Source: a virus. From it: 22,968 nt of DNA. How positions within the stretch are numbered: position 1 is the first letter of the stretch; every line of letters starts with the position of its first letter. The notes beneath the pieces were generated by a model. That model was not told the DNA's origin, searched no databases, and worked only from the letters and a program-made list of their open reading frames with translations. Below are positions 1-17,157 of the stretch, piece by piece. A program made the translations under genes and the position numbers. Location of the stretch: positions 1 through 22,968 of IMG/VR virus record IMGVR_UViG_3300020438_000291, one strand, 5' to 3'.

Positions 1-306
1 ACCATCCCTCCAATCATCACCAAGTAATAATATATCAGGTTGATATAGTTCAATTAGATCTTCTAACTCTTTCCTACACCCAAAGGTATGTACCACATCA
101 ATATACTTGATTGCCTCAAGCATAGCAACCCTATAACAAAGATCGTTTATAGGGCGATGCTCACCTTTGTCAGTCCGAATCTTCTCATCCGTATCCGTAG
201 CAACTATTACCTTATCTCCTAGAGATCTAGCAACTTTGAATAATTCTATGTGACCTGGATGAAGAATATCGAATGTGCCGTTGCACCAAACAATATCATT
301 CTGCAT
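1..306 (-). CDS. Cytidylyltransferase-like nucleotidyltransferase, 3' end cut by window edge
   Basis: The first 102 residues are visible and the rest lies beyond position 1. The N-terminus has the nucleotidyltransferase signature GTFDILHPGH, the HxGH ATP/CTP-binding motif, at residues 10-19. A K-G-x-x-R-P segment and the later LLGDDW motif follow. This pattern belongs to the family of glycerol-3-phosphate cytidylyltransferase (TagD) and the adenylyltransferase domain of HldE/RfaE. KG..RP favours the HldE type and GDDW favours the TagD type, so the substrate cannot be fixed. The reaction would be activation of a phosphorylated sugar or polyol to an NMP-sugar. The ATG shares its A with the TAA of the carbamoyltransferase gene (TAATG), which suggests coupled translation; no strong ribosome binding site is seen. 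The GT9-like transferase in the same operon fits a nucleotide-sugar supply role. Confidence 0.85.
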   Translation of the reverse strand, partial: MQNDIVWCNGTFDILHPGHIELFKVARSLGDKVIVATDTDEKIRTDKGEHRPINDLCYRVAMLEAIKYIDVVHTFGCRKELEDLIELYQPDILLLGDDWRDG

Positions 307-2102
307 TATAACTTAGTATCATCTACTTCAGTTAATATATTTACAGGTTGTTGTCTTTTATCTACCATTTCTCTAGTCGATATTTCAACTAACTTTTGAA
401 TTTCAGGCAAATACATGTAATTAATATCACTAGTTGATAGTGTATCTAATGCATCATCAATATCTTCAACCAAAGGATCTCCACCTAGATTAAATGATGT
501 GTTAAAGAGAATAGGAGTATCAGAAAGTTTTTCAAAAGCACTGATCAAATTATAATAATGTTCATTCTGTTCTTTAGTAACAGTTTGAATTCTACAGGTA
601 TTATCAACATGAATTACTGAGGGAATCTTTTCATCAACTCCTGGTAACGCATCTACAGCATACATCATACTTGGAGACTCATCCATACCAGCAAGATCAA
701 ACCATTCATGCACATTCTCTTTCTTAATAGAGCAAGCAAAAGGTCTAAAGAACTCACGACGCTTTATTCTATTAACTATATCCTTACCATCTTTAATAGT
801 AGGATCAAATAATATAGAACGATTGCCAAGTGCTCTTGGACCTGCTTCAGACCTACCTTGGAATATAGTTACAATATTACCTTCACGAATTAACCTAGCA
901 ACACTATCATATGAAGCATCAGTAACTTTAGCACTTGGATACTCATGAATATAATCTAAGTATGTATCTGGGTCATATTGGGGACCATAGTATATTGTTT
1001 TTGGTGGTTCAACAAGATTAGTTTCCAATCCTGGTTTTACATAATCATTATAATAAACATGATAAGCACCACCCATAGATGTTCCACCATCATGAGAAAT
1101 TGGCTCAACATATATGTTTAGATTTGGGAATCTTTGCTTAAATTTATAGTTAGCAACACAATTTAAACCATACCCACCACATATAACAATATTAGTTTCG
1201 CCAGTTTTTTCATGTGCCTTTTGAATCAAAGCACACATTTGATCCTCAGATTCTTTTTGAATAGCATATGCTAGATCTTTTTGAACCTGTGTATACTCTC
1301 CCGTATCTACTTCTCCATTATGGGAATGATAGTCATCTCTAATTATTTTATATCGATCCTCTATAACATAAGCACCATTTGGATAATTTGGTTTAAATAA
1401 ATTTCTATTACCAAATCCATTCACAAACATTGGAGGTATATTTTTATTTGGTTGTCCATATGGAGATAAACCCATTGTTTTTCCAGCTTCAATAGAATTA
1501 AATCCACAATATCTTGTTATTGCTTCATATTCTTTTACTATACCAGGAAACTCAGTAAGAATAATATCTGGGTTATCTGCATCTAAAAGCATATATCCAC
1601 ATGGTTCATCTGTTCCATAGTGCTTATACACAATTTTAGTATCTAAACCTTTCTTAACATGATATATTGATTCAAATTCATATATTGTATTGTCAAAAGC
1701 TTCAATATGTAAAAAACTTCCAGCACCATCAGCTATAACAGAAGCAGCACTATCAAATCCAGAATTTATAAATGCTATATCAGAATGCATTTCATGGTGA
1801 ATACTATCAATAAAAGTTATTTTATATGGAGTTTTTCTCTTACATAATTTTCTCATCCAAGATTTATAAAGATCTTCAGTAGTCCAATCAACTGTAGGAG
1901 CACCTCTATGTGTATGACAGACAACTAAATGATCAATGTGATCAACATATTCATATACTTTAGCCATCCCCAACAAAGGAGTACCATCACGCTTAAACCT
2001 AGATAAACGTTCTTCCTCAAGATAAAAAATTACTTTACCATCAATCATCAACGTGGTACTAGCATTATGACCACGAGAAATAGAACAGATAATATTACTC
2101 AT
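306..2102 (-). CDS. Carbamoyltransferase, NodU/CmcH/TobZ family
   Basis: This 598-residue protein has the full two-domain layout of the O-carbamoyltransferase family, which uses carbamoyl phosphate and ATP to carbamoylate a hydroxyl group. The N-terminal Kae1-like domain has the GHNAS motif near residue 11 and EEERLSRFK near 29. It also has the metal-site motif HHEMH at 102-106 and a matching Asp in HDGG at about 338. A GGYGLNCVAN segment lies near 309. The C-terminal domain shows GRSEAGPRALGNRS (416-429), FRPFA (452-456), RIQTV (504-508) and LFNTSFN (532-538). Length is normal for the family and nothing key is missing. It starts two bases after the glycosyltransferase stop codon. Known substrates of the family include Nod factors, antibiotics and, for some phage enzymes, 5-hydroxymethylcytosine in DNA. 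The neighbouring sugar genes favour a glycan, but DNA modification cannot be excluded. Confidence 0.93.
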   Translation of the reverse strand: MSNIICSISRGHNASTTLMIDGKVIFYLEEERLSRFKRDGTPLLGMAKVYEYVDHIDHLVVCHTHRGAPTVDWTTEDLYKSWMRKLCKRKTPYKITFIDSIHHEMHSDIAFINSGFDSAASVIADGAGSFLHIEAFDNTIYEFESIYHVKKGLDTKIVYKHYGTDEPCGYMLLDADNPDIILTEFPGIVKEYEAITRYCGFNSIEAGKTMGLSPYGQPNKNIPPMFVNGFGNRNLFKPNYPNGAYVIEDRYKIIRDDYHSHNGEVDTGEYTQVQKDLAYAIQKESEDQMCALIQKAHEKTGETNIVICGGYGLNCVANYKFKQRFPNLNIYVEPISHDGGTSMGGAYHVYYNDYVKPGLETNLVEPPKTIYYGPQYDPDTYLDYIHEYPSAKVTDASYDSVARLIREGNIVTIFQGRSEAGPRALGNRSILFDPTIKDGKDIVNRIKRREFFRPFACSIKKENVHEWFDLAGMDESPSMMYAVDALPGVDEKIPSVIHVDNTCRIQTVTKEQNEHYYNLISAFEKLSDTPILFNTSFNLGGDPLVEDIDDALDTLSTSDINYMYLPEIQKLVEISTREMVDKRQQPVNILTEVDDTKL

Positions 2103-2104
2103 AA

Positions 2105-3211
2105 TTAACCCAATCCTTTTTTAGTAGTTTCTAAAGTCAATAACTCTTCAATTGGTTTCTTCTTTTTCTTTTTTGAATTTGAGTCAAGAGAAATAGAATA
2201 TTTTGAAGGTGCAATTGCATTATTAGGTTTCTTAGGTTCTAGTATAGGAGATTGATTTTTAGGAGTTACACCAACTCCAACATTTACTGCTTTACTTACA
2301 CCTATTTTATCCTTAATAGTTTTAACAATCTTACTAATTTTATCCTTATCGAGCACCATAAGATCTTCATTATTTCTATCAACATTCAAATCCATTGTTA
2401 ATCTTATTGGACTATACTTACGTTTTCCTTCTCCATTATCAATAACAGCAAACCTATCAGTATCTGGGTAAGAAATATTTTCAGGGAAAGTAGATCCAAT
2501 CACAACGGTGGCAGGTTTCTTCAAAGCATATGCCATATGTTGTCCAATACTATCACATCCTAAGAAATAATCTGCAGAATTAATAATACCCATCCAACCA
2601 TTCAATCCCATACCTTGAGGACATGCTACACCCATAGATTGCCATCCTGGAATTTCTATGGTTGTCATAAGAATTAAACAATAATTCTTATTCAACTGTT
2701 CAATTAACGATACTATATTAGAAACTTCAAAACTTCTACCACTACTATCGTATATAAAATTACCTTCAGATTTAGAACCTTGTCCAAATGGTTGAAATAC
2801 TATTACTTTATCTTTACCTAAAGTACCTTTTACTTCAGAAGTTAAATTATGTCCAAGTATTTGATCTTCCTTATTAAGATCTATACTAATATTTCTAGTT
2901 TCTGGGATCTCATCCAATTCATTAATTTCAATATCAAATGCTTGTATTAGATTACATTTCTGATTGAAATATTGATTTACTCTGTAAGGTTCTGGTGATA
3001 CTATCTGTTTATCCTTCAGATAGTTTTCAAACAAATCCTTATGACCGAAAGGAAAAACCTTTTCTCGTAATACTTTACTATTTAAATATAACTCATGCCA
3101 CGATTCAGATACTATAACAAAATCGTCATGTGTTTCTGCAAATCTCTCTAATGCAGGAATAGAACAAAGTACACGCCCTGCTCCACCATTGATAAAAAAT
3201 GCTTTATTCAT
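2105..3211 (-). CDS. Glycosyltransferase family 9-like (heptosyltransferase-like) protein
   Basis: The 368-residue protein resembles GT-B heptosyltransferases. It has an N-terminal glycine loop (NGGAGRVLCSIPALERF, residues 8-24) equivalent to the GGIGDVL-type opening of GT9. The second domain begins around VIVFQPFGQGS (136-146). The nucleotide-sugar site is GCDSIGQHMAYALKKP (218-233), followed by TVVIGST. GT9 enzymes move ADP-heptose onto lipopolysaccharide core; the substrate here is unknown. Residues beyond about 305 form a polar tail with a run of six lysines (347-352), which is unusual for GT9 and could be a nucleic acid or membrane contact. The start is supported by GAGG ten bases upstream of the ATG. 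It is the first gene of a three-gene operon with its own sigma-70-like promoter. Confidence 0.75.
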   Translation of the reverse strand: MNKAFFINGGAGRVLCSIPALERFAETHDDFVIVSESWHELYLNSKVLREKVFPFGHKDLFENYLKDKQIVSPEPYRVNQYFNQKCNLIQAFDIEINELDEIPETRNISIDLNKEDQILGHNLTSEVKGTLGKDKVIVFQPFGQGSKSEGNFIYDSSGRSFEVSNIVSLIEQLNKNYCLILMTTIEIPGWQSMGVACPQGMGLNGWMGIINSADYFLGCDSIGQHMAYALKKPATVVIGSTFPENISYPDTDRFAVIDNGEGKRKYSPIRLTMDLNVDRNNEDLMVLDKDKISKIVKTIKDKIGVSKAVNVGVGVTPKNQSPILEPKKPNNAIAPSKYSISLDSNSKKKKKKPIEELLTLETTKKGLG

Positions 3212-3366: not shown

Positions 3367-4434
3367 CTACTTCCAAGATACGCAAACCATACCAAACTTA
3401 CCAGAGTCACCACAGTGACCAGTACCACCACCCATAGCATGTGATGCAAATCCACCAGCACCAGGATATCTTAAACAAGAGTTCTGCCAAGCACTACACT
3501 GGTATCCACAACAGTTACCAGAAGTATAGCAGGGGCAACATTGGGTAGCAAGTTCAAATCCATATACAGGAGGATGCATTTCATATCCATAATGGTCACT
3601 ATTGAAACACATCTTAGACCACATTCCCCGAACACCATAAATTACATTCTCGAATGTTGGGCAAGTAATATCGTGAAGAGATCCAGAAGTATGAGATCCA
3701 GGAATATTACATATCTCACCAAAGTTAGGTCCAGTGAAACACCAGTCACCACCTTGATTACATATGTAACCACCCTCAGAATCTTGGCTTGAATTAGCAA
3801 TTCTACAAACACATCTTCCACCTCTCATGGACATCCAAGTACCTAGAGATCCTTGTCCTCCATCTGCACAGAAATTACAGAAGTGGCATCCATCTACCCA
3901 TGTTTGGCATCCAGTTAGTCTGTGTGATCCAGATGTAGTATATGCATAGCAGCAATAAGCACAACCAGTACACATACAATAAGTCCAACCAGCAGTTACT
4001 GGAATAATAACAGATGCATAAGCACCAGTAGATCCGAATGGTGTATGTCCACAGCAGCAAGGTCCTTTGTTTGCACCACCACCAGCACCCCATAATTGGA
4101 ATCTAGCACTTGTTACACCAGAAGGAACAGTCCAGTTACAACTACAGTTACATCTATAGTAACCAGTACCATCACAAACTTTTAGACCACCAGTCCAACC
4201 TTCTCCTTCCCAAACATGCCATTTAGTTGTATCAGCAGGTTCAAGCCAATGACCCTTTTCACCTTTACCATCCTCACGATTTAACCATGCCTTAGCACAA
4301 CTTTCAGCAGAACCAGATCCACCACCGCCAGCAGCAGCATTCTGTTTAAGATCGAATAAACAGGCTTGCTTCGCAGCAACCTCTTTCTTTAGTGCAGCTT
4401 GCTCATTCAGAGCACTATAAACTAATACATCCAT
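3367..4434 (-). CDS. Cys/Gly-rich virion fibre-like protein, paralogue A
   Basis: The 355-residue protein opens with a short Ala/Lys/Glu helix (1-33) and a Gly/Ser linker. It then has the phage Gly-rich fibre signature WTVPSGVTSARFQLWGAGGG (101-120). I count 34 cysteines, nearly one residue in ten, in clusters such as RCNCSC (94-99), CCCG (126-129), CMCTGCAYCC (153-162) and QCCPC. It ends in GKFGMVCVSWK. It aligns along most of its length with the 358-residue protein at 5159-6235. No signal peptide or membrane segment is seen. Its start codon follows the stop of the 225-residue gene directly (TAAATG), so translation is probably coupled. A tail fibre or tip role is inferred from the Gly-rich motif and the virion gene context; the cysteines suggest metal binding or disulfide bonding. 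It is the last gene before the terminator. Confidence 0.8.
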   Translation of the reverse strand: MDVLVYSALNEQAALKKEVAAKQACLFDLKQNAAAGGGGSGSAESCAKAWLNREDGKGEKGHWLEPADTTKWHVWEGEGWTGGLKVCDGTGYYRCNCSCNWTVPSGVTSARFQLWGAGGGANKGPCCCGHTPFGSTGAYASVIIPVTAGWTYCMCTGCAYCCYAYTTSGSHRLTGCQTWVDGCHFCNFCADGGQGSLGTWMSMRGGRCVCRIANSSQDSEGGYICNQGGDWCFTGPNFGEICNIPGSHTSGSLHDITCPTFENVIYGVRGMWSKMCFNSDHYGYEMHPPVYGFELATQCCPCYTSGNCCGYQCSAWQNSCLRYPGAGGFASHAMGGGTGHCGDSGKFGMVCVSWK

Positions 4435-5112
4435 TTAGACAATACCTCCAACTCCTTGAATAGAGACTTTATTTAATTCAATTTGAACATCAATAGGAAT
4501 TTTTGGTATAGTTCCTACTGATGCTGGAAGTGTTATGTACTTCCATGTTTCATAATATGGATTATTTCCTAGATATGTTCCAATACCAGCAACGTAATGA
4601 TCTGCTTTAGTATTAATAGTATCACCAAAATCATATTGATCGGTAAATGTCTTTACATAATCTCTTCTTTTCTTTGCTTCATCAGCATTTTCATTCTCTA
4701 AGGGTTTTAATATCTGTCTAAATGCCCATTTATCTGCAGAGAAGTCCCAATAAACTTCGTATGCATCCCTTAAATCTGGGTTATCAATCTTCTTATACAC
4801 ATCACCATTACTCATGGTTACATTAGTATAAGTATAATTATACGTATAATCATCATGGAATTGATGTGACAACGCATATGCCATCGGTAGTGAATCACTA
4901 CTTAATGCAGAAATAGTCTTCCTAATATCAGCATTCTCAGGTGGATCGGTAGTAACGGCAACTTTAGTTACTCCTCCATCTGCTCTGTCAACCCACACAT
5001 CAAATGTTTCAGGTCCAACGTATGTATAACTTCCTGTTACATTAGTAGAGATGCCAGCGACATACAATTCAGTAGGAAGAAGTTGAGTAAAAGATGATGT
5101 AATGTTTGCCAT
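4435..5112 (-). CDS. Unrecognised virion-region protein, 225 residues
   Basis: I do not recognise a family. The N-terminus is Ser/Thr/Tyr-rich and beta-like (residues 1-60). The middle is Tyr-rich with YTYNYTYTN near 89-97 and an aromatic DFSADKWAFRQ segment. A charged helical stretch (ENADEAKKRRD) follows, and the C-terminus is hydrophobic and beta-like, ending in VGGIV. No signal peptide, membrane segment or catalytic motif stands out. It has its own late promoter about 34 bases upstream and abuts the Cys-rich gene downstream without a spacer. A partner, chaperone or adaptor for that fibre is possible, but this rests only on gene order. Confidence 0.75.
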   Translation of the reverse strand: MANITSSFTQLLPTELYVAGISTNVTGSYTYVGPETFDVWVDRADGGVTKVAVTTDPPENADIRKTISALSSDSLPMAYALSHQFHDDYTYNYTYTNVTMSNGDVYKKIDNPDLRDAYEVYWDFSADKWAFRQILKPLENENADEAKKRRDYVKTFTDQYDFGDTINTKADHYVAGIGTYLGNNPYYETWKYITLPASVGTIPKIPIDVQIELNKVSIQGVGGIV

Positions 5113-5145
5113 TGTTTTTTACGATCTCTGTTTTTTTACTTTAGT

Positions 5146-5153
5146 TATTTATA
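5146..5153 (-). promoter_or_regulatory. T4-type late promoter TATAAATA
   Basis: An exact TATAAATA octamer on the minus strand sits in the 46-base gap, about 34 bases upstream of the ATG at 5112. T4-like phages read this element with the gp55/gp33/gp45 late transcription machinery. It would drive the 225-residue gene and the Cys-rich gene that follows. Confidence 0.75.
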
Positions 5154-5158
5154 ATGTA

Positions 5159-6235
5159 TTAACAGTATGATACACAAACCATACCTGTCTTGCCGATGTC
5201 AGCAAATCCACTATTGTCTCCACCACAAGTAGAGTAACCCCATGCACCAGCACCAGGCATACAGCACATTGCTTGACAAGAACATGCTTGATAACAACAT
5301 CCACCATTCTCATTGTTAAATGTTGCCTGACAACAAGAACATTGTGGGAATCCATAAACACCAGGATGTTTCACACACTGGTTATATGCTCCATGATTAT
5401 ACTTGAAGAATGAAAATTGTCCAGGTATACCATATACAGTTCCACCTGTCGCTGATCCATAGTGAGTCTTACAACTCGCAGCTACAGGCATCTGGGCATC
5501 CATTCTATTTTGTGGATATCCAGGAGAAGGAGTTTGTACATTATGAGAACAATAATCTGTTCCACTATTACAAATACATCCACCCATATATTGGCATATA
5601 TTATCTTGGTTTGGTATATAATGACATCTAGTTTTTCTTTCACAGAAAATATTAGATTCACCACCTTCAGCACAGAAGTTTGTTAATCCTTGACCTTGAA
5701 CATAAGATGGGCATCCATCAGCAGTCATCTGGGCTCTTTCTGTATGACAACAGTAGGCACAACCAGCACAAAGAGTATAACTTTGTCCTGATGTTACAGG
5801 CATAATAACAGACGCATATGCACCAGATCCACCATTAGGTGATCCACCACAACAACAACTAGTACCAGATCCACCACCTGCACCCCAAATTTGGAATCGA
5901 GCACAAGTTATGCCACCAGGAACAGTCCATTGACAGCAGCAACCACATCTATGATACTGAGAAGTATCACAAACTTGAATTCCACCACTCCAACCGCCAG
6001 CAGCAGGATCTGCTTCGCTAGAAGCACTTCCTTTTGGAATCATACACCATAATCCAGCATTTGGAGATACTGCATTCTTCATGATTTCAGTTGTGGAAGT
6101 TGTTTCTGCACCGCCACCACCGCCACCACCGCCGCTTTCAGCAGCAGTAATAGCTTCAGTCAATGCTGCAGATTCAGCCTTTAACTCTTGATTAACTTCT
6201 GCGAGAGCATTATAGGTTAATACGTCTGCTGCCAT
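5159..6235 (-). CDS. Cys/Gly-rich virion fibre-like protein, paralogue B
   Basis: The 358-residue protein shares the plan of the one at 3367-4434: a helical N-terminus (1-33), a run of eight glycines (35-42), and the fibre motif WTVPGGITCARFQIWGAGGG (103-122). Cysteine clusters follow. I count 36 cysteines, including CGCCC (97-101), CCCG (127-130), CAGCAYCC (156-163), CSCC, and YQACSCQAMCC (315-325). The end is GKTGMVCVSYC. Shared blocks with the paralogue include GAYASVIxPVT, NFCAxGG, GxICNxGxDxC and VYGF. The start is supported by GAGG seven bases upstream, inside the end of the preceding gene. Gly-rich fibre domains of this type occur in phage tails; the cysteine load is the odd part. Metal binding, disulfide cross-linking or both are inferences. 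Confidence 0.8.
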   Translation of the reverse strand: MAADVLTYNALAEVNQELKAESAALTEAITAAESGGGGGGGGAETTSTTEIMKNAVSPNAGLWCMIPKGSASSEADPAAGGWSGGIQVCDTSQYHRCGCCCQWTVPGGITCARFQIWGAGGGSGTSCCCGGSPNGGSGAYASVIMPVTSGQSYTLCAGCAYCCHTERAQMTADGCPSYVQGQGLTNFCAEGGESNIFCERKTRCHYIPNQDNICQYMGGCICNSGTDYCSHNVQTPSPGYPQNRMDAQMPVAASCKTHYGSATGGTVYGIPGQFSFFKYNHGAYNQCVKHPGVYGFPQCSCCQATFNNENGGCCYQACSCQAMCCMPGAGAWGYSTCGGDNSGFADIGKTGMVCVSYC

Positions 6236-6238
6236 TTC

Positions 6239-6514
6239 TTATACCTCAGTAATTGCTGTAACTAAATTTTCGGAATTATATGTAAGTTGCCAATTTTTAT
6301 CAACACCACCTATAGTTTCAGTATAGGATGTTATAAGATTGGATGCATTGTATGCAATACTACTATAATTATTGTCACCTAGCGTAATAGCTGTTACATT
6401 ATTAGAAGCATTAGTAGTAATACCTGTTGCTCTGGTAAAGGAATCGGTTCCAACGATAGTTCCACCACCACCACCTTTTCCTTTGTTTATACTAAGACCT
6501 ACAAATCTTCCCAT
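6239..6514 (-). CDS. Small Gly-rich virion protein, 91 residues
   Basis: The protein begins MGRFVGLSINKGKGGGGG and is then beta-like. It holds short Asn-rich repeats of the form NNVTAIT, SNLITSY and ENLVTAIT spaced about 20 residues apart, recalling YD/RHS-type repeats. There is no signal peptide or membrane segment. GAGG seven bases before the ATG supports the start. It lies 11 bases after the upstream small gene and 3 bases before the Cys-rich gene, so the three are one transcription unit. A small tail or fibre-cap protein is the best guess from context; I do not recognise a named family. Confidence 0.7.
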   Translation of the reverse strand: MGRFVGLSINKGKGGGGGTIVGTDSFTRATGITTNASNNVTAITLGDNNYSSIAYNASNLITSYTETIGGVDKNWQLTYNSENLVTAITEV

Positions 6515-6898: not shown

Positions 6899-9800
6899 TT
6901 AGATTTGTCCAACAAAGAACTCAGAAATCTGAACTCCTTTTGCTGTATCATTTCTAAGAGTAGTTATACCAGCGTTAGCGTGTGCTAATGCAGTTGCTAT
7001 ACCCAAGTTTGCTGCGTTTGATGCCATTACTAAATGTTCAGCATCTTTAGTGCCAACATAAGTTCTAACTGCAGCCTGTGTTGGCACTTTCTCATTACTG
7101 TTTTGTGCCATCGTTCCGTCAGTTGAGAACTCATTAACTTGAGCACCTAACTGAGCACCGATAGAACCCAATCGAATTGAGGTCAAACCAGATAGATCGA
7201 AACTGTTAGCATTCAATGTTGCAGCACCAGTTGCCTGGTTAACACGGAAATACTTACCAACCCTGAAGTTACCTTGTTCATCAGTAGAAACATAGAATAC
7301 CCTTCCTGGGAAGTCTTCTGTAATTTCCTGTGTCTGAACAGGATCTTGTGTTGGAACATCAGGCCAATTAGTTGTATATGTTCCACCAGTTCCTACTTGT
7401 AAGAAGTCATGTCCAGTTAATCTTGCCTGACTGAAGATGTAACGAATTTTGATATCCTGTTCATCAAACGCTTTAGCAGCTTTTTCTTCAACAAGAGTTA
7501 CAATAGTAGTACCGTAAGTATCAGTAGTAACACCAGTTACTTTAGTAAATTCATTATCAATCTTCATATAAGAACCAACAACATCTTCAAATCTATTTGA
7601 AATCGTTGCTCTAAAGTCAGTAGAAACACCAGTAAAGTCTTTATTAACTTCAGCAGAAGTAACAAAACTAGTTGTTCCAATTGAAGTAAAGGCATCACCA
7701 ATACTATATGCAGATGCAACAGCAGCACCATCTTGTGCTCTTAACACAGTCATAGAGTTTGCAGTTGGGAATGCTTGAATCTTACACAATTCATTAGTTG
7801 GTGATAAACAATATTCACCAGGATTAAATCCACTAATGGTACTCGTACTAAGAGTAACATCTCCAGCTTGTGCTGGAGTTAGTAATGTAAATGAAGCACC
7901 AATATTAACTGGATACTTAATAAATGTTGTGCTTCCACCTGTATGTGCTGCACCAGCAGTAGCCCACTGTCCTCTGTCAATCTGTACATTACCCTTACCA
8001 ACAGGACCTGACTGACTTACACCAGAGATCACAAAAGTAAATGGATCTGATCCAGTAATATTATCACTATTATATCCACCGTTACCTAATCCAGTAACAA
8101 ATTCAATACTACCATTGAGTTCAAGGGTTGGTGATGTTCCTAATCCAGCAAGAACAAGAATACGTCCAGATTGTCCTTCGTTTGCACTTGTGTTGTTAAG
8201 AAGAGGAGCAGTTGTTCCTGAAGTCATAGCAGTAATTGTTTCTCCAGCAGAGAATCCTGATCCAACTCCAACAGCACCTTCACTAATTACTGAATAATAT
8301 ATTTTTTCTTGAAGGGTTCCTTGAACTGAGTTAATTTTTCCCCAAGCTTCAGAAGTATTACCTCGGATTCTTTCTCCAACTTGGAATCCTGATCCAGTAA
8401 CACTAGTATGATCATACGTAAGAACTAATCCTTCTAATTGACCTTCTCTTGCCTTCTCAAGTGGACTAAATCCAGAACTTACAACACCATACTTACCCCA
8501 TGAACTGTTTCCAACAAGAGATCTAAGTCTTCCACCACGAGTAGCAGCATAACTTATATGGTTATAGTATGTGAAACAAGAAACTGTTTCTGCCACAGCA
8601 CCATCTGTGATCCAGAATGCCATTCCTTCATCGTGAATGTTTGTGAATGAGTCAAACACGATAGATTTGTTAGAAGGTGTTGCTGATCCATCAACAAATT
8701 GTCTATGAACCCCACCATCTACGATTGCACCAATACCTTTAACAGATTTTGCAGAACAGTTTGATACGTATGGTGATTTAACAACTCTACTTTCTGGGTT
8801 TAAAGCAACAAAGGTTCCTTTAATATGTGCATTATTAGGATCATACTGTTGTGCTGTGAATGTAAGATCAGTTGCACCAAGAGTTTGAATCTTATCAACT
8901 TCTAAAGTAGAACCATCAATAAATCCACTAACTTTTGTTCCAGTCGAAACACCAGAACCAGTTATAGTTGTTCCAACTAAGTCTGGGAATAAATCAGAAC
9001 CAGTTATCTTAGATCCAGCAATACTACAACTTATAGTTGTAACTATACCTGCTGGACTGAAACCAGTCATACCTTCCATCAACAAGTCTTTAAGCATCGT
9101 TGAGTTGCTTAACATAAACATTGTCGATTCTTCATTCGGTCTTGTAGTAACCGAAGTAATACCTATATCTGTTCCACCATTTTCCCACTCATCTGATGTT
9201 GTCCATTCTCCACCAGAAAGCCATCTGATTTGAATCTGCTTCTCAGCGTAATCTGAATCTAAGATAACAGCACACTTAGTTCCAGCACCGTTAAAGATTG
9301 AAGAACCATATGCAACAGCAGAAGGAGCAGATGCTAATGTTATATCTTGATGCCTAGATGCATTTCCCTGACCAACTCTAACTGTAATTGTAGTTCCAGT
9401 TGTCGCAATAATTGGTATTGTAGTATTACCATAAACTGGATCTTTTGGTCTCGGATAAGTATGCTGAGTAGCATAATTATCCTGTGAACAAGTAAATGTT
9501 AATGAATTACCATTAATACCAATAGTATTAGAAGTAGTTAAACTATGTGTTCCAATCTCTAATACAAGATCCCCTGATACAGAATCGTAAGTTGTTCCAC
9601 CACCAGCAGTAAAAGGACCACCAGAATCTGCTGTAACAGATCCAGTAAGACCACTTATAAAGGTATGTGCATAATGAATACCTGGTTTAACCCTAGATGT
9701 TCTTAAGTTATCTCCAACAAGTGATACGCCAGGTGGTACAACAATTGGAAGAGTTTCTGAATATGTTCCTGCTTTTACGTAAATACTTGCTGGTCCAGAT

Positions 9801-10858
9801 GCTATACCACAAGCATGTCTTACAGAAGCAAATGCCCTACTTATATTTGAACCATCATTAGTATCACTTCCTTCTTCTGTTACATAGAAAACTGGATGTG
9901 TTACGCTATTTGATTCCCAATTAGGTACTCCACCAGTACTCATAGCGAGTACTTGACCATTAGTTCCTTTAGGTAATCTAGCAGAACCAGTGGTGTAATA
10001 GACCATATCACCTTGAGTGGTCATCACATTATTGGCAGCACCCTCAGCCAACATACTCCAATAAGTACTTGTACCGTCAGTTGAAGGATCTTCGTTTAGA
10101 CTACCAACAGTAGCAACACCAATATAACTATTACTTAATCTCTTTACAGCATCTCCTAATTCATACTTTACACTAGAATCCCAGTTACCTTTCCAAGCAA
10201 CACCTTTATTAACTAAAGTCCAATTTGCTGGTGTTGTTGGGATAGTATTTGTACTAGTTGTAATTGCAACATAGGTGTATCCACCATATTGAACTACATC
10301 ACCTTGCTTATAATCTGTTGATGCGGAATAATAACCAACTACATTAAATCCTGTAGTTATAATATCCCAATCATTCGTTAGATTGTATGAAGGTGCTTTA
10401 TCTGTATTAACACTCTTTGAAACGTAAGTGTATCCACCGTAAGTTACAACATCTCCATCTTGATATTGTGTTGAAGAACTCCAAGTATCTTCATAATTAA
10501 ATGATTGTAAGTACTCAACTACATTTGTAGTACTAGCAGCTTCATCAAAACTAGCACCAGAAGTAAATCCAGTAGTTACTCTATACTGAGTATTACCATA
10601 TTTGAATATATCATTTACCTTATACCAATAACTTGCAGCCCAATCTCCCTTATTTACTATACCTTCAGTATGTAAGGACCAATTAAGTGTTAGATCTGCA
10701 CTATAAAAAGATTCTTCAGCAGCAGCAGAAGTGTGATTCTTCTTACAAACATAAGTATTTGCACCATACTTTATGATGTCATCTATAACATACGCAGTAC
10801 TTATAGTCCAGTCACTACGCCAGTTAAATTTTAATCTGCCAAGTCTAAATTCAGCCAT
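6899..10858 (-). CDS. Large adhesin: tandem sugar-binding-like repeats plus beta-helix, 1319 residues
   Basis: Residues 12-272 hold five repeats with the pattern W...Y..GD.V.YG..TYV, resembling carbohydrate-binding module family 5/12. From about 322 the segment VFYVTEEGSDTNDGS, then SIYVKAGTYSETLPIVVPPG and VGDNLRTS, is typical of a right-handed beta-helix of the pectate-lyase-like type. A long Thr/Ser/Gly-rich body follows. The C-terminal 135 residues begin GRVFYVSTDEQGNFRVG and end with an Ala-rich helical tail, a module partly shared with the truncated protein at 21799-22968. The repeats suggest binding to a surface polysaccharide, and the helix may bind or cut it; I see no certain catalytic residues. 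It starts 15 bases after the preceding stop codon and shares that gene's transcript. Confidence 0.85.
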   Translation of the reverse strand: MAEFRLGRLKFNWRSDWTISTAYVIDDIIKYGANTYVCKKNHTSAAAEESFYSADLTLNWSLHTEGIVNKGDWAASYWYKVNDIFKYGNTQYRVTTGFTSGASFDEAASTTNVVEYLQSFNYEDTWSSSTQYQDGDVVTYGGYTYVSKSVNTDKAPSYNLTNDWDIITTGFNVVGYYSASTDYKQGDVVQYGGYTYVAITTSTNTIPTTPANWTLVNKGVAWKGNWDSSVKYELGDAVKRLSNSYIGVATVGSLNEDPSTDGTSTYWSMLAEGAANNVMTTQGDMVYYTTGSARLPKGTNGQVLAMSTGGVPNWESNSVTHPVFYVTEEGSDTNDGSNISRAFASVRHACGIASGPASIYVKAGTYSETLPIVVPPGVSLVGDNLRTSRVKPGIHYAHTFISGLTGSVTADSGGPFTAGGGTTYDSVSGDLVLEIGTHSLTTSNTIGINGNSLTFTCSQDNYATQHTYPRPKDPVYGNTTIPIIATTGTTITVRVGQGNASRHQDITLASAPSAVAYGSSIFNGAGTKCAVILDSDYAEKQIQIRWLSGGEWTTSDEWENGGTDIGITSVTTRPNEESTMFMLSNSTMLKDLLMEGMTGFSPAGIVTTISCSIAGSKITGSDLFPDLVGTTITGSGVSTGTKVSGFIDGSTLEVDKIQTLGATDLTFTAQQYDPNNAHIKGTFVALNPESRVVKSPYVSNCSAKSVKGIGAIVDGGVHRQFVDGSATPSNKSIVFDSFTNIHDEGMAFWITDGAVAETVSCFTYYNHISYAATRGGRLRSLVGNSSWGKYGVVSSGFSPLEKAREGQLEGLVLTYDHTSVTGSGFQVGERIRGNTSEAWGKINSVQGTLQEKIYYSVISEGAVGVGSGFSAGETITAMTSGTTAPLLNNTSANEGQSGRILVLAGLGTSPTLELNGSIEFVTGLGNGGYNSDNITGSDPFTFVISGVSQSGPVGKGNVQIDRGQWATAGAAHTGGSTTFIKYPVNIGASFTLLTPAQAGDVTLSTSTISGFNPGEYCLSPTNELCKIQAFPTANSMTVLRAQDGAAVASAYSIGDAFTSIGTTSFVTSAEVNKDFTGVSTDFRATISNRFEDVVGSYMKIDNEFTKVTGVTTDTYGTTIVTLVEEKAAKAFDEQDIKIRYIFSQARLTGHDFLQVGTGGTYTTNWPDVPTQDPVQTQEITEDFPGRVFYVSTDEQGNFRVGKYFRVNQATGAATLNANSFDLSGLTSIRLGSIGAQLGAQVNEFSTDGTMAQNSNEKVPTQAAVRTYVGTKDAEHLVMASNAANLGIATALAHANAGITTLRNDTAKGVQISEFFVGQI
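10043..10825 (-). repeat. Five tandem CBM5/12-like repeats (protein level)
   Basis: Repeats of roughly 50 residues start near residues 12, 68, 121, 172 and 221 of the 1319-residue protein. Each has a Trp or aromatic residue, then a Y..(G/D)D.(V/I) turn, then YG..(T/S)Y. Repeats 3 and 4 are closest (GDVVTYGGYTYV and GDVVQYGGYTYV). Repeat 5 has drifted most. Confidence 0.7.
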
Positions 10859-11959: not shown

Positions 11960-14900
11960 CTATTCTGCTATTTTTGCCTTCAACGTATCTATCTCACTAG
12001 ATAATTCCTTAATTGCATTTACAAGAACTGGAATTAATCTTTCATACTTCATACCATATGAAGGATCAGCATCATCCTCATCTTGGTTAGTGATAAGCAT
12101 ATTGTCCTTTGTATCTCCATAACCAAATTTTTTCTCAACTTCAATTGCTTCTTGTGCTATGAAACCTACATGAATACGATTAGTCTTCCTACTTCCATCA
12201 GGTGTTCCTTTAGTAGCTGGATCTTCAGTATACCAAGAACGCTTATCCCAACGATAAGTAACAGGTCTTAACTCCTTAATCCACGCTAATCCATGATCAA
12301 AATTTTGTATATCAGCCTTATCTCTCAGATCCGAAGAACTAATTGATGTATCATTACAATATATATTTTGAACAGAATTATCTCCTAAACAAACAATATT
12401 ACTATTACTATTAACAGAACCTGATGGTGATGATCCAGTTCCTGACTGATAACCGAGCATAGTATTATTACTACCCGTATTAACAAAATATCCAGCCCAT
12501 TTACCCACAGCAGTATTTGAATATCCTGTATCAAGGGAATAATGTGCCATATGTCCCACAGAGACGCAGTCGTATGCTGAATGAGTTGATCCACTATTAC
12601 CATAATGTGTTAGCTGACCTATCGCAGTATTGTTATAACCTGACTGGTTTAGATACATCGAAAACTTACCAACAGCTGCGTTATTACCTCCAACTGTGTT
12701 GCTGTATAACGCAGCATATCCCATAGCAGTACTTGCTTGAGGTGGATCCTGAACAACAATTTGTCCCTGCATAGACACATGATTTTGGCAAACATAATAA
12801 TAAGTACCAGCAGTTTTAGGTGTGAAAGTAACATCACCATTATCTTGTCCATTATTAGTTACACCCTCGTTTGTTCCAAGAACATTTGAAGCATTATATC
12901 CACCAGAACTTGACTGAATCCAGAATGGATGTCCAATAGCACTTATACTAATTGTAGCAGTATCTCCTATATTAAGAGTAATAGTTGGGTTGTTTCCAGC
13001 AGCAGGTCCTCCTACTCTATCATTACCACTCATAGTATATGAACTTGCTCCAGAATTAACAACTGCTATAGCAAATGATGCAGTTGTACCTGTACTGCTA
13101 AGGCAAAAACTACCAACCGCAGTATTAGTATCGGAACCGTTATTCATGTTCGTCAGTGCTTTATATCCCACTGCAGTATTATCAGAACCAATTCCACTTT
13201 TTGCTAATGCTTCATTACCAAAGGCACAATTCTGACCACCTATGGTGTTATATCCCATTGCTAACGCACCAAAGGACGAATTATATTGTCCTGTTAAGGT
13301 AGAAAACTGACTACTTTGTCCAAAAGCAGAATTACCATTACCTGCTGTCAAGCTAACTAATGCATTAAATCCAAATGCAGATGTATTATAAGAATCCGTA
13401 GCTATACCAGCAGCTTTATAACCTACTGCAGTATTTTGAGCTGTCGTAATTTCTTGTAATGCTTTATAACCTACTGCAGTATTATAGTTATTATTATTTT
13501 TTTGTAATGCATAAGAACCAACTGCAACATTTAAACTACCAGTCGTTCCAATACCAATTGCTTCATATCCCACGGCAACATTATTATCACCATCAATATT
13601 TTCCCGTAAACTGTTATTTCCAACCGCAGTATTAGCAATACCTCTTATAGTCTGAAGTTGACTAGCATATCCAATAGCAGTATTTGATGAAGTCACAGTA
13701 CTCATACCTAATGCAAATGCACCAAGAGCAACTTGATAACTTCCACTAGTTTGAGACTCAAGTGTATTATGTCCTACGGCAGTATTATAATCACCAGTTT
13801 TTAGAGATTTTAAACTCTCATATCCGATTGCAACATTATAACTAGCATCAGTAGAAACTCCAAGTGCTTGATATCCCATTACATTATTAGATTGACCTGT
13901 TATATTATCATTTAAAGCAGCATATCCAAACGCATTATTCCAACTTCCTGTCGTGGTATTTTCTCCTGCATAAGCACCGAAAGAACAATTCAAAGCTCCT
14001 GTTGTATTCTGTAGCGATGCATAAGAACCTGTTGCTGTGTTAAAATCTGCTATATTATTCTGTAATGCACCATTTCCAACAGCAGTGACATAGTTTGAAG
14101 TAGTTCCAACACCAACAGCATAATTACCAATTAATGTATTATAGCTAGATCCACCAGTTAAATACCTTCCTGCATCAGATCCTAAAACAGCATTTTGCCC
14201 TCCAGAGGTAATTGTTCTTAATGCATTCCTCCCAAAAGCTGAATTATAATCACCACTCACATTAGCGTATAATGAAGAATCACCACTCGAAGTATTATAA
14301 CTACCACTCACATTAGAGTATAATGCAGTATAACCACTCGCACTATTATTAGTTCCATCAACATTATTGACTAATGTATAACCACCCAGTCCAGTATTAA
14401 AACTTCCATTTATATTTTGCTGTAAAGAATATAGACCCAGTCCTGTATTTTGTGATCCAATATTATTAAAGAGAGTATAGTAACCAAATCCAGAATTATC
14501 ATTTCCATTATTCTTATACCCAGAAGCATATCCAAAGAAACTATTATTTGCTGCAGTGCTAATGCCAGTAGTAGTACTAAATCCAGCGTAAGATCCAACT
14601 GCAGTATTATAACTTCCACCAACATTTTCTAAAGATCTTTGTCCAACAGCAGTATTATCACCGCCAGGAGATACATTTAATGAACTATATCCAATACCAA
14701 CATCTCCACCAGCCATACTAGTGTTAGCTGCACCAGCAGAAGTTCCTAAGTAAACACTTGTACCACTAGTCTTTCCATCTAAAGTTGTATCAGTATCAGA
14801 AATTACACCTACTATATTAATCTTAGCACCCATATTAGGGTGTGCTGTACATTGATAGTACAACGTATCTGGTGCATCTTGTGGAACTTCAAATATAATA

Positions 14901-15301
14901 TCTGTTGGTGCAGAACCATCATTATTAGTTACACCAATATTGTATTGTGTACCTGGAGATGGAGTTCCATTAACAGTGCTTTGAATCCTAAACGGATGCC
15001 CTGAAGATCTATTATGAAAAATATATTTTTGTCCTTTATAAAGAGTTAATTCTGGATCATTTACTTGAGTTGAAATACCTGATCCTATAAAAGTGTAATG
15101 ATCTGTTCCATCATTACCAACCATCCAACTAGCAGTAGCACCACTAAATTCATATGCAGTACAAGTTCCACCGATTGATACATCAGTACTTATAGCAACG
15201 TTTACTGCGTTTAAATTTAGATTATTTGGACTTGTAAGTGTTGGAGTACCAGATGCTCCAATCAGATTGATTTTCTTTACGCCAAATCCTTTATCTGCCA
15301 T
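11960..15301 (-). CDS. Tail fibre: YadA-head-like repeats, two cupredoxin-like domains, C-terminal S74 chaperone
   Basis: The 1113-residue protein has five parts. Residues 1-60 begin with a KKINLIGASGTP fibre-like opening. Residues 66-166 are a cupredoxin-like domain. Residues 186-735 hold about 33 repeats of 16-18 residues with the pattern NTAVGY.AL. Residues 742-851 are a second cupredoxin-like domain, followed by about six more repeats. The end (988-1113) is the intramolecular chaperone of the endosialidase type (Peptidase_S74), with SDLRDKADI, VTYRWD, HVGFIAQE and a helical tail. S74 domains trimerise fibres and then cut themselves off. The candidate Ser990 and Lys995 keep the spacing of the endosialidase dyad. 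A host-binding fibre is likely. A weak variant late promoter lies upstream. Confidence 0.9.
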   Translation of the reverse strand: MADKGFGVKKINLIGASGTPTLTSPNNLNLNAVNVAISTDVSIGGTCTAYEFSGATASWMVGNDGTDHYTFIGSGISTQVNDPELTLYKGQKYIFHNRSSGHPFRIQSTVNGTPSPGTQYNIGVTNNDGSAPTDIIFEVPQDAPDTLYYQCTAHPNMGAKINIVGVISDTDTTLDGKTSGTSVYLGTSAGAANTSMAGGDVGIGYSSLNVSPGGDNTAVGQRSLENVGGSYNTAVGSYAGFSTTTGISTAANNSFFGYASGYKNNGNDNSGFGYYTLFNNIGSQNTGLGLYSLQQNINGSFNTGLGGYTLVNNVDGTNNSASGYTALYSNVSGSYNTSSGDSSLYANVSGDYNSAFGRNALRTITSGGQNAVLGSDAGRYLTGGSSYNTLIGNYAVGVGTTSNYVTAVGNGALQNNIADFNTATGSYASLQNTTGALNCSFGAYAGENTTTGSWNNAFGYAALNDNITGQSNNVMGYQALGVSTDASYNVAIGYESLKSLKTGDYNTAVGHNTLESQTSGSYQVALGAFALGMSTVTSSNTAIGYASQLQTIRGIANTAVGNNSLRENIDGDNNVAVGYEAIGIGTTGSLNVAVGSYALQKNNNNYNTAVGYKALQEITTAQNTAVGYKAAGIATDSYNTSAFGFNALVSLTAGNGNSAFGQSSQFSTLTGQYNSSFGALAMGYNTIGGQNCAFGNEALAKSGIGSDNTAVGYKALTNMNNGSDTNTAVGSFCLSSTGTTASFAIAVVNSGASSYTMSGNDRVGGPAAGNNPTITLNIGDTATISISAIGHPFWIQSSSGGYNASNVLGTNEGVTNNGQDNGDVTFTPKTAGTYYYVCQNHVSMQGQIVVQDPPQASTAMGYAALYSNTVGGNNAAVGKFSMYLNQSGYNNTAIGQLTHYGNSGSTHSAYDCVSVGHMAHYSLDTGYSNTAVGKWAGYFVNTGSNNTMLGYQSGTGSSPSGSVNSNSNIVCLGDNSVQNIYCNDTSISSSDLRDKADIQNFDHGLAWIKELRPVTYRWDKRSWYTEDPATKGTPDGSRKTNRIHVGFIAQEAIEVEKKFGYGDTKDNMLITNQDEDDADPSYGMKYERLIPVLVNAIKELSSEIDTLKAKIAE
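11963..12340 (-). other. C-terminal S74 intramolecular chaperone domain
   Basis: Residues 988-1113 show Ser-Asp-x-Arg-x-Lys (S990, K995), VTYRWD, HVGFIAQE and a helical end (YERLIPVLVNAIKEL). In this family the chaperone folds the fibre trimer and is cleaved off just before the Ser. Confidence 0.88.
12446..12736 (-). repeat. Second block of YadA-head-like repeats, about six units
   Basis: Residues 856-952 resume the same pattern (for example TAVGKWAGYFVNTGSNN) between cupredoxin-like domain 2 and the S74 chaperone. The units are less regular here, at 16-20 residues. Confidence 0.7.
12749..13078 (-). other. Cupredoxin-like domain 2 of the 1113-residue fibre
   Basis: Residues 742-851 include ITLNIGDTATI, HPFWIQ (His791) and YYYVCQNHVSMQG (Cys838, His841, Met844). 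The ligand set and spacing match domain 1. It splits the repeat array, with repeats on both sides. Confidence 0.75.
13097..14746 (-). repeat. YadA-head-like repeat array, about 33 units
   Basis: Units of 16-18 residues, most often 17 (51 bases), follow the pattern (T/S/V)A(V/F/I)G..(A/S)L....(T/S)G..N. Examples are TAVGYKALQEITTAQN and NAFGYAALNDNITGQSN. The array should form a trimeric beta-roll shaft like YadA and related adhesins. Confidence 0.85.
14804..15106 (-). other. Cupredoxin-like domain 1 of the 1113-residue fibre
   Basis: Residues 66-166 form a beta-rich segment with LTLYKGQKYIF and HPFRIQ (His102). The loop YYQCTAHPNMG supplies Cys151, His154 and Met157. The Cys-x2-His-x2-Met spacing equals that of amicyanin, a blue copper protein. 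Copper binding is inferred. Confidence 0.75.
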
Positions 15302-15318: not shown

Positions 15319-15326
15319 TATTTAGA
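15319..15326 (-). promoter_or_regulatory. Weak late-promoter-like TCTAAATA
   Basis: One base off TATAAATA, it overlaps the stop codon of the protease gene 18 bases before the ATG at 15301. The first genes' transcript may simply read through instead. Confidence 0.3.
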
Positions 15327-17157
15327 ATGAAATGCCAGTAATGGATGATTCACCATTATTAGCGAAAGGATTAAATAAAATCCTACGAGGAGAACTCTTC
15401 AAACTATAAGTATTACCCCAGTAGTCTGAATCAGTATCACCATTACTTTGGTATGGATCATAATATTCAGTGGCAGCAACTTCACAAGATCCATGAGTAT
15501 GTAACCATTTTCTAGCATCTGCTCTAGTTGCCTGTGGTTGAGACTCCAAATACAACGCCATCACACCACATACTTGAGGTGTTGCCATACTAGTTCCACT
15601 TATAGCATAGTTATAAAAACCATTATTTCTTGGGTCAGCATATCCAGTTGCATATGGACTTAAGATAATAGATCCACCAGCCCAAACATCAATTCTTGGA
15701 CCTCTATTACTGAAAGAGGAACATCTTTCTTGCCCTCCAGTTGTCTGTCTTGCAGCATCAATAGAACCAACAACTATCGCAGCATCATCTCTTCCTTCCC
15801 CAGATATAGCAGGTGTTCCAGATCTATTATAATAATGATCATACCCAGAACCATAATAAAAAGTAGCAGAAGTCATTTCATTATGATAATCTCTCCCTGA
15901 AGGAATCTCCTGTTTATCATTAGAATTACCTGCAGCAAAACAGAATACTATATCCTTACAATCAGGATCATTAAATAATTCATCTGCTTCTGATTGACCA
16001 TATGTTTGTTTAGCAGTAAACTCATTATAGGTACTGAAACCATAAGACATATGATGTACTGCAGGTGCAGTAGTAGAATTTATTTGACTCTGGTCATAAC
16101 TAGTTCCTCTAAAGGTTGCAGTATGATTATTATTATAATTCCAAAATTGCCTATTTCCCCAACTACCATTAACAACTGTAGGATTTCTTCTACCAGTTAA
16201 TGGATTAATTGGTTTATTCTTATGCCAAACTTTAATATAATCAAATCCATCAGAAGGATTTGACCATCCAAGATCACTTCTATCAACACAAGCAATAGAC
16301 CATATATTTGCTTCAAAGGCATGTCCAAATTGATTGCCAGCAGAAGTTCCAGCACAGTGCGAACCATGATGGTTTGCTAAACTATTACTTTGATTACCAT
16401 TATTATGCATTAATAAAGCACCAGCAACATTATAATTTGCAAATGATCCTGATCCAGGTGCAGTTAATCCATTAGCAGACCAATTGATTCCATATTCAGA
16501 TTCACCATGAATTAATATATCTCTAACTCTACTCTCATCTTCACAAGCTAAAATACTAGTAACAGATGTGAATCCTGGTTTTAAAAATTCTGGGTGATTC
16601 CAACGAACTCCAGTATCCATAATAACAACATCAACATTTTTCCCTGATAAAGTATACTGTAGATCTTCAGTTATAGTTGTAGCATTAATAAACTTATTAC
16701 TCCTATGAGAATGGCGATACAAACCCCACTGAGTAAAATCTAAAGTGTTTCCTGGATTACCTCCACCACTAGTAGATGTTCTCCTATTAGTAACATCATA
16801 TTTAAATCTATTAGTAGTAATGTGTTGATCAAACTCTTGATCATATTTTCTCTGTTCCAGTTCATATTCATTATGTAAAGTAGATCTCAATACCCATTCA
16901 ATCTTAGGGTGATTCTTTAATACATCTGCCTCTGCAGGAGAGATTTCATATACACCTCTCTTAGGAGAACACTGCATCTCTGATGTGCAATCAATCTTCC
17001 TATTTGGAATATCATCTATATTATTTTCGTTGATTATATAATTATGAATCTCTGTCCAATCTGCAGCATCTTTTACACAAACAGTATATGCTTGAGCAGA
17101 AGTGCTATGAACAACAAGAACTCTTCCAGTATTTGAATCTAAAGTTGTGCTAATCAT
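15322..17157 (-). CDS. Subtilisin-like serine protease (S8 family), 611 residues
   Basis: All catalytic blocks of subtilases are present in order. The Asp is in DVVIMDTG (Asp181), the His in HHGSHCAGT (His264), the oxyanion Asn in CFAAGNSND (Asn411), and the Ser in ISGTSMATP (Ser523). Residues 1 to about 95 precede the catalytic domain and could be a short prodomain. Residues 100-170 are a polar linker with a Gly-rich patch, and the last 60 residues form a tail. The insert between the Asp and His is long (about 80 residues). No secretory signal peptide is seen, so it probably acts in the infected cell or on the virion. The ATG overlaps the collagen-like gene's stop (ATGA) with GGAGG upstream. 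It may mature tail proteins or cut host-surface proteins. Confidence 0.92.
   Translation of the reverse strand: MISTTLDSNTGRVLVVHSTSAQAYTVCVKDAADWTEIHNYIINENNIDDIPNRKIDCTSEMQCSPKRGVYEISPAEADVLKNHPKIEWVLRSTLHNEYELEQRKYDQEFDQHITTNRFKYDVTNRRTSTSGGGNPGNTLDFTQWGLYRHSHRSNKFINATTITEDLQYTLSGKNVDVVIMDTGVRWNHPEFLKPGFTSVTSILACEDESRVRDILIHGESEYGINWSANGLTAPGSGSFANYNVAGALLMHNNGNQSNSLANHHGSHCAGTSAGNQFGHAFEANIWSIACVDRSDLGWSNPSDGFDYIKVWHKNKPINPLTGRRNPTVVNGSWGNRQFWNYNNNHTATFRGTSYDQSQINSTTAPAVHHMSYGFSTYNEFTAKQTYGQSEADELFNDPDCKDIVFCFAAGNSNDKQEIPSGRDYHNEMTSATFYYGSGYDHYYNRSGTPAISGEGRDDAAIVVGSIDAARQTTGGQERCSSFSNRGPRIDVWAGGSIILSPYATGYADPRNNGFYNYAISGTSMATPQVCGVMALYLESQPQATRADARKWLHTHGSCEVAATEYYDPYQSNGDTDSDYWGNTYSLKSSPRRILFNPFANNGESSITGISF

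Follow-up and report, generated by a model that had tools for sequence, protein, structure and literature searches.

Cysteine-saturated, probable tail-tip proteins in a P-SSM2-like cyanophage fragment, and a linked enzyme pair that points to their possible chemical modification

The DNA considered here is a stretch of 22,968 nucleotides (IMG/VR virus record IMGVR_UViG_3300020438_000291, positions 1 to 22,968; hereafter the window) which, as read from its genes, corresponds to the tail-fibre region of a P-SSM2-like myovirus of Prochlorococcus, a T4-like cyanophage, encoded on the minus strand. It carries two unusually cysteine-rich proteins, A (36 cysteines (Cys) in 358 amino acids, 10.1%) and B (34 Cys in 355 amino acids, 9.6%), followed by genes for a glycosyltransferase-like protein (GT) and a carbamoyltransferase. 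An earlier note on this DNA had singled out positions 3367-6235 as two paralogous, virion-like proteins with 34 and 36 Cys; the reading frames, the counts and the paralogy (36% identity between A and B over their length, E=8e-52) bear this out, although the interval also holds a Cys-free gene between them. Here we report that the enzyme pair tracks Cys-richness, not fold. Its occurrence alongside Cys-rich tail proteins of unrelated families points to chemical modification, and the Cys load could well represent thiol sites of post-translational modification, a reading to which we give slightly less than an even chance.

The linkage is best seen from the enzyme side. Two single-virus genomes possess the GT and the carbamoyltransferase and lack a member of the glycine (Gly)-rich family of A and B, and at the same place they encode other Cys-rich proteins (282 amino acids with 26 Cys; 758 amino acids with 73 Cys and 290 amino acids with 31 Cys) without sequence relation to that family or to each other. 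IMG/VR contigs were therefore fetched by GT homology alone, giving 121 viral contigs with at least 2.5 kb upstream, and an open reading frame (ORF) was taken as Cys-rich at thresholds chosen by us, at least 6% Cys and at least 150 amino acids. In 115 of the 121 contigs a protein of the tail region reached 6% Cys or more, and 120 had the carbamoyltransferase; with a strict profile, 53 carried the Gly-rich family, 62 other Cys-rich proteins and 6 none at 6%, and when GT loci lacking a strict family member were re-classified more sensitively, those with short upstream sequence included, 62 of 70 were still without any Gly-rich relative. The non-family proteins, which reach 1156 amino acids and 145 Cys, are themselves diverse (103 proteins in 36 blastp clusters), and part of them begin with an N-terminal segment that also occurs in virion structural and tail-fibre proteins poor in Cys, which is what tail proteins would be expected to show. 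The baseline Cys content of other ORFs was 1.07%. In isolates, too, a close GT and its partner carbamoyltransferase are found together with Cys-rich proteins, while the control regions of S-CAM8 and S-RIM44 (distant carbamoyltransferase, no GT) and the syn9 fibre region contained no ORF of at least 150 amino acids above 4.4% Cys. More distant GT homologues (25-29% identity) lie within tail gene clusters of Vibrio and Aeromonas phages, beside proteins with 2.3-4.4% Cys overall and 7.6-8.0% in their densest 250 residues.

Within the window, the remaining long ORFs contain 0-1.8% Cys. The orthologues of A and B in P-SSM2, PSSM2_304 (85% identity) and PSSM2_306 (88%), are the only proteins above 4% Cys among the 166 ORFs of at least 150 amino acids in that genome, where the median is 1.1%. 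The share of nearly one Cys in ten residues and the clusters quoted in the earlier note (CMCTGCAYCC and QACSCQAMCC) are found in the translations as described. An artefact of reading-frame choice was ruled out, as the frames are kept in about 200 relatives and the ratio of nonsynonymous to synonymous substitution rates (dN/dS) against P-SSM2 is below 1 for both (0.31 and 0.45). Nearly every locus among the IMG/VR relatives has one of two arrangements, either two long copies (about 355 amino acids) flanking a gene of 210-290 amino acids or three short copies (about 260 amino acids) in tandem. In the family tree A and B, and likewise positions 1, 2 and 3, mostly form clades of their own (16 label changes, compared with 89 for shuffled labels), which implies an old paralogue set that was kept together; judged from this tree, A and B are ancient paralogues maintained as a set. 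The search for cellular homologues returned only four contigs from metagenome-assembled genomes (L086, L087, L088 and L089, filed as Flavobacteriales, Actinomycetota, Euryarchaeota and Rhodobacteraceae), all of which carry the whole phage cassette and are probably mis-binned phage contigs. Our literature search found no paper describing Cys-rich cyanophage tips; virion proteomics was found for S-SM1, Syn9 and S-PM2, and not for P-SSM2.

The structural evidence makes it highly probable that A and B are tail-tip adhesins, that is, Gly-rich distal tail-fibre tips like gp24 of cyanophage Pam3. The AlphaFold 2 (AF2) model of protein A from a 119-row alignment (predicted local distance difference test, pLDDT, 83; predicted template modelling score, pTM, 0.81) has an N-terminal helix, a Gly linker and a beta domain, and its best solved structural matches are the Pam3 fibre (7ypx; VIA-align Z 12.7 over 200 residues with a root-mean-square deviation of 3.9; Foldseek E 3.8e-6) and the Bxb1 tail tip (Z 11.3), together with the glycine-rich domains of ALK/LTK. 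The Pfam family Gly_rich_2 (PF21722) is matched by 39 of 119 relatives (best E 5.1e-9, some above the cut-off), while A and B themselves have no Pfam match. Pam3 gp24 is reported to consist of a helical stem, a TNF-like domain and a glycine-rich distal domain that recognises the receptor (PMC9608196). With its chaperone gp25 (PDB 7ypx/7yfw; PMC9608196) it resembles A and B in the helical N-terminus, the beta domain, the glycine-rich distal domain and, probably, a dedicated chaperone gene close by, and a receptor-binding role has been proposed for it; by this likeness the N-terminal helix of protein A probably serves in oligomerisation or docking. Homology is also detectable to other Gly_rich_2 tips such as syn9 gp38, and in syn9 the Gly-rich proteins come after a large fibre gene. 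The differences are of composition and copy number: the glycine-rich domain of gp24 has 39% Gly and is present once, and canonical Gly_rich_2 domains encoded by these same viruses combine 29-38% Gly with 0-2 Cys, whereas A and B have about 16% Gly and about 10% Cys and occur as two or three paralogues. As they lack the polyglycine lattice of canonical tips (30-40% Gly), we describe them not as canonical members but as Cys-rich variants of an already known tail-tip fold. The Gly-rich frame and tail association proposed earlier are supported; for membership in the virion and a position at the tip, fold, synteny and homology agree, and both should be read as predictions. A and B belong to phrog_35878 (E 1.7e-172 or better) and phrog_4205, families with no assigned function, whose entries describe neither Cys-richness nor enzyme linkage.

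What the Cys residues do is a more complicated matter. They could staple the tips, if cross-strand or loop disulfides formed after lysis in oxygenated sea water were to replace the polyglycine hydrogen-bond lattice and hold hypervariable receptor-binding loops in place. The extracellular adhesin fold, seen in both the AF2 model and its structural matches, agrees with this, as does the strong retention of Cys, a sign of strong selection, which between relatives of 55-85% identity is the best-kept residue (89%, against 83% for Gly and 76% for Trp), eight positions being near-invariant (99%) and the others retained at 85%. Close spacings are enriched as well, CC, CxC and CxxC being about 1.4-1.7 times and CCC about 3.5 times commoner in the family than in composition-matched shuffled sequences. 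Residues 97, 128, 159 and 162 of protein A are Cys together in the long (two-copy) lineage and jointly absent in the short one (phi 0.74-0.91), a joint gain or loss across the deepest split, and could form two disulfides or one metal site. Against stapling, however, odd Cys counts are as frequent as even ones, whether for single chains, pairs or triples, in a parity test that is weak because a few free Cys would hide an even excess, and gains or losses of Cys along branches show no global excess of pairs. Stapling would also leave unexplained the linkage to the GT and carbamoyltransferase, as well as the Vibrio phage tail proteins (L175 6729-11996 and L176 6733-9507), in which a helical-looking Ala/Thr-rich repeat is dotted with Cys; given this scatter, a disulfide fold seems unlikely there. 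Simple full disulfide pairing is therefore disfavoured, within the limited power of these sequence tests, and stapled tips appear to us a rather unlikely account of the Cys load as a whole, while disulfides between some of the Cys, the eight near-invariant ones above all, are likely. The earlier suggestion of disulfides survives in part, without the full network. The sulfhydryl oxidase family Evr1_Alr (PF04777) gave no match, which is uninformative since the control was also unmatched, and glutaredoxin, found in 6 of 9 genomes, is ordinary for T4-like phages. Comparison of Cys positions with Cys-poor homologues offered too few aligned positions.

Binding of metal was the other proposal of the earlier note. 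The metal would be iron, offered as bait in the manner of a Ferrojan horse, or Zn or Cu, with stability as the gain. Dense Cys clusters are compatible with it, among them the CxxCxxCC cluster of the long lineage, and the four co-varying Cys could form one tetrahedral site. The three-copy lineage, however, has no CxxCxxCC. In columns without Cys in the long lineage it is K, R, Q, M and Y, not His or Asp, that are overrepresented among the replacing residues, and among the Cys replacements we saw no Cys/His exchange signature of the kind typical of metal sites. A relation to metallothioneins or another known metal family was considered and rejected, there being no sequence match in Pfam, NCBIfam or PDB. 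Metal binding would again leave the enzyme linkage unexplained. We found no direct support for metal carriage, nothing points to iron, and we regard metal-binding tips as improbable. Across the wider family, non-core Cys positions turn over repeatedly, and retention and turnover together are less well explained by a closed network of disulfides than by a structural core plus numerous thiols that are independent and mostly exposed. Unpaired gain and loss, the lack of parity and replacement by long polar residues fit independent, mostly exposed acceptor sites.

The enzymes themselves differ in how firmly they can be assigned. The carbamoyltransferase scores far above the Pfam cut-offs (Carbam_trans_N 71.7 bits and Carbam_trans_C 191.3 bits, against 24 and 27) and was present in 88 of 88 family loci having 4.5 kb or more of downstream sequence, while the GT reaches 14.9 bits for Glyco_transf_9 against a cut-off of 22, with weak NCBIfam matches to heptosyltransferases. 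As a model of how it might work we consider the autotransporter heptosyltransferases TibC/AAH (PMC4358343), which are of GT-B type, paired with an adhesin gene and supplied by an ADP-heptose donor. TibC differs in modifying Ser on beta-helix autotransporters and in possessing a four-Cys iron finger (PMC4358343). The alignment of the phage GT family has only two conserved Cys (C18 and C226) where four are needed (PMC4358343), so the phage protein is not a bacterial autotransporter heptosyltransferase (BAHT), though by analogy it may still work like one. Heptose-pathway genes lie downstream in many loci, suggesting an ADP-heptose-type donor. Precedent for a sugar on a Cys thiol comes from the SunS-type S-glycosyltransferases of glycocins; these bacteriocins are small and secreted and, unlike the phage tips, have the modification on one or two Cys. 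Loci of the three-copy lineage (L003 9588-10220 and L061-L083) have, between the chaperone and the GT, a gene with a prolyl 4-hydroxylase-like 2-oxoglutarate/Fe(II) (2OG-Fe(II)) oxygenase annotation (Sf-FS3) or an ORF of similar size, possibly a third modifying enzyme. The heptose-pathway genes would also suit a host-range cassette, in which the enzymes modify host lipopolysaccharide (LPS) for receptor masking or superinfection exclusion and travel with LPS-reading tips, the Cys-richness having a separate cause, and a comparison of cyanophage genomes indeed names such genes LPS clusters (PMC3037559). Such a cassette would, however, tie the enzymes to receptor specificity, whereas the observed linkage is with a single amino acid across unrelated protein families, and we assign it little probability. 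The LPS of marine Synechococcus is not known to contain heptose.

We return to modification of the thiols as the reading we prefer, and infer that the tips serve the enzyme pair as dedicated substrates, the likely acceptors being thiols (S-glycosylation). A and B would be made as an obligate set with the neighbouring assembly chaperone and placed as distal tail-fibre tips; the downstream ADP-heptose pathway genes, in the many genomes that have them, could supply the sugar donor; numerous Cys side chains would receive the sugar from the GT9-like glycosyltransferase, and the NodU-type enzyme would place a carbamoyl group on it or, with lower probability, on the thiol. The outcome would be an S-glycosylated tip coated with carbamoyl-sugar, possibly of benefit through protection, receptor specificity or chemical stability. 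Extending this more tentatively, we can envisage a mobile tail-decoration system in phages of cyanobacteria, with a weaker form in Vibrio and Aeromonas phages, in which the GT and carbamoyltransferase S-glycosylate tail-fibre proteins at dozens to more than 100 Cys, unrelated tail families having become independently Cys-saturated as substrates.

Several observations speak against thiol modification and should be weighed with it. Six of the 121 GT loci have no ORF of at least 6% Cys (L191, L228, L229, L242, L253, and L256, which has one at 5.6%), and many contigs are related, so that there were fewer independent events than the locus counts suggest. No strong acceptor motif surrounds the Cys, and the eight near-invariant Cys have the look of a structural element more than of decoration. 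Support for assigning the GT to GT9 is weak (Pfam E 0.017; no match in PDB); its aligned N-terminus reads GGAGR where heptosyltransferases carry a catalytic Asp, and it may not be a classical enzyme. Part of the loci are without ADP-heptose genes. Enzyme activity, thiol acceptor, sugar identity and benefit are all predictions.

The Cys-free gene between A and B is probably a tail-fibre assembly chaperone. The profile of its family (A4) aligns with that of the gene that follows three-copy arrays (A5; hhalign probability 97.3, E 2.7e-11), and A5 members match PF16778 (Phage_tail_APC) at 35-43 bits against a cut-off of 26.6, which is an indirect route to PF16778, as the window gene itself has no Pfam match of note. 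One or the other profile is present in 159 of 166 loci. The AF2 model (pLDDT 93.5) shows a beta domain and helices; a fold search with it gave no convincing match, which does not show that the folds differ.

Table 1. Features of the window around the Cys-rich proteins.
Feature	Position	Strand	Basis and remarks
Start of a gene, cut by window end	1..306	-	ORF call; position of PSSM2_309, synteny with L001
Carbamoyltransferase, NodU/CmcH-type	306..2102	-	PF16861 E 1.2e-56; PF02543 E 9.6e-20
GT9-like (heptosyltransferase-like) protein	2105..3211	-	Glyco_transf_9 E 0.017 (under curated cut-off); phrog_8954 E 5e-160
Tip protein B, Cys-rich	3367..4434	-	355 amino acids, 34 Cys; paralogue of A; 88% to PSSM2_306
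Cys-free protein, probable tail-fibre assembly chaperone	4435..5112	-	225 amino acids, between A and B; profile alignment, AF2
Tip protein A, Cys-rich	5159..6235	-	358 amino acids, 36 Cys; N-terminal helix, Gly linker, beta domain; 85% to PSSM2_304
CAGCAYCC cluster of protein A, residues 156-163	5747..5770	-	C156, C163 near-invariant; C159, C162 only in long (two-copy) lineage
N-terminal helix of protein A, residues 5-34	6134..6223	-	AF2 secondary structure
Large tail fibre upstream of tips	6899..10858	-	phrog_9851 tail fiber protein, E 0

Among the neighbours, the large fibre is by its position a candidate carrier of the tips. PSSM2_309, a putative nucleotidyltransferase of an ADP-heptose-like pathway, was matched to the partial gene by position and synteny. 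Just upstream of tip A, an ORF of 91 amino acids (6239-6514) gives weak RHS-repeat and DUF6567 matches (E ~0.001-0.002, under the cut-offs). Further upstream, a proximal tail-fibre-like gene (11960-15301) is fast-evolving, with a dN/dS of 0.91 against P-SSM2 compared with 0.12-0.55 for every other gene compared, and the product of 15322-17157, within the tail-fibre cluster, has a protease-type PHROG match (phrog_3677), its P-SSM2 orthologue being annotated with PF00082 (subtilase).

The choice of the cell that a phage infects is made by its tail-fibre tips, and phages seldom encode proteins with 10% Cys. P-SSM2, S-SSM7, S-CAM1 and S-CAM3 are cultured phages, so that the modification reading is directly open to mass spectrometry. 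If the modification were confirmed, it would represent a new post-translational modification of virions, and host recognition or virion-surface chemistry would gain a new layer in viruses that are abundant in the ocean. It would also give a use to part of the cyanophage LPS gene clusters, for which a role as stuffer DNA has been suspected (PMC3037559).

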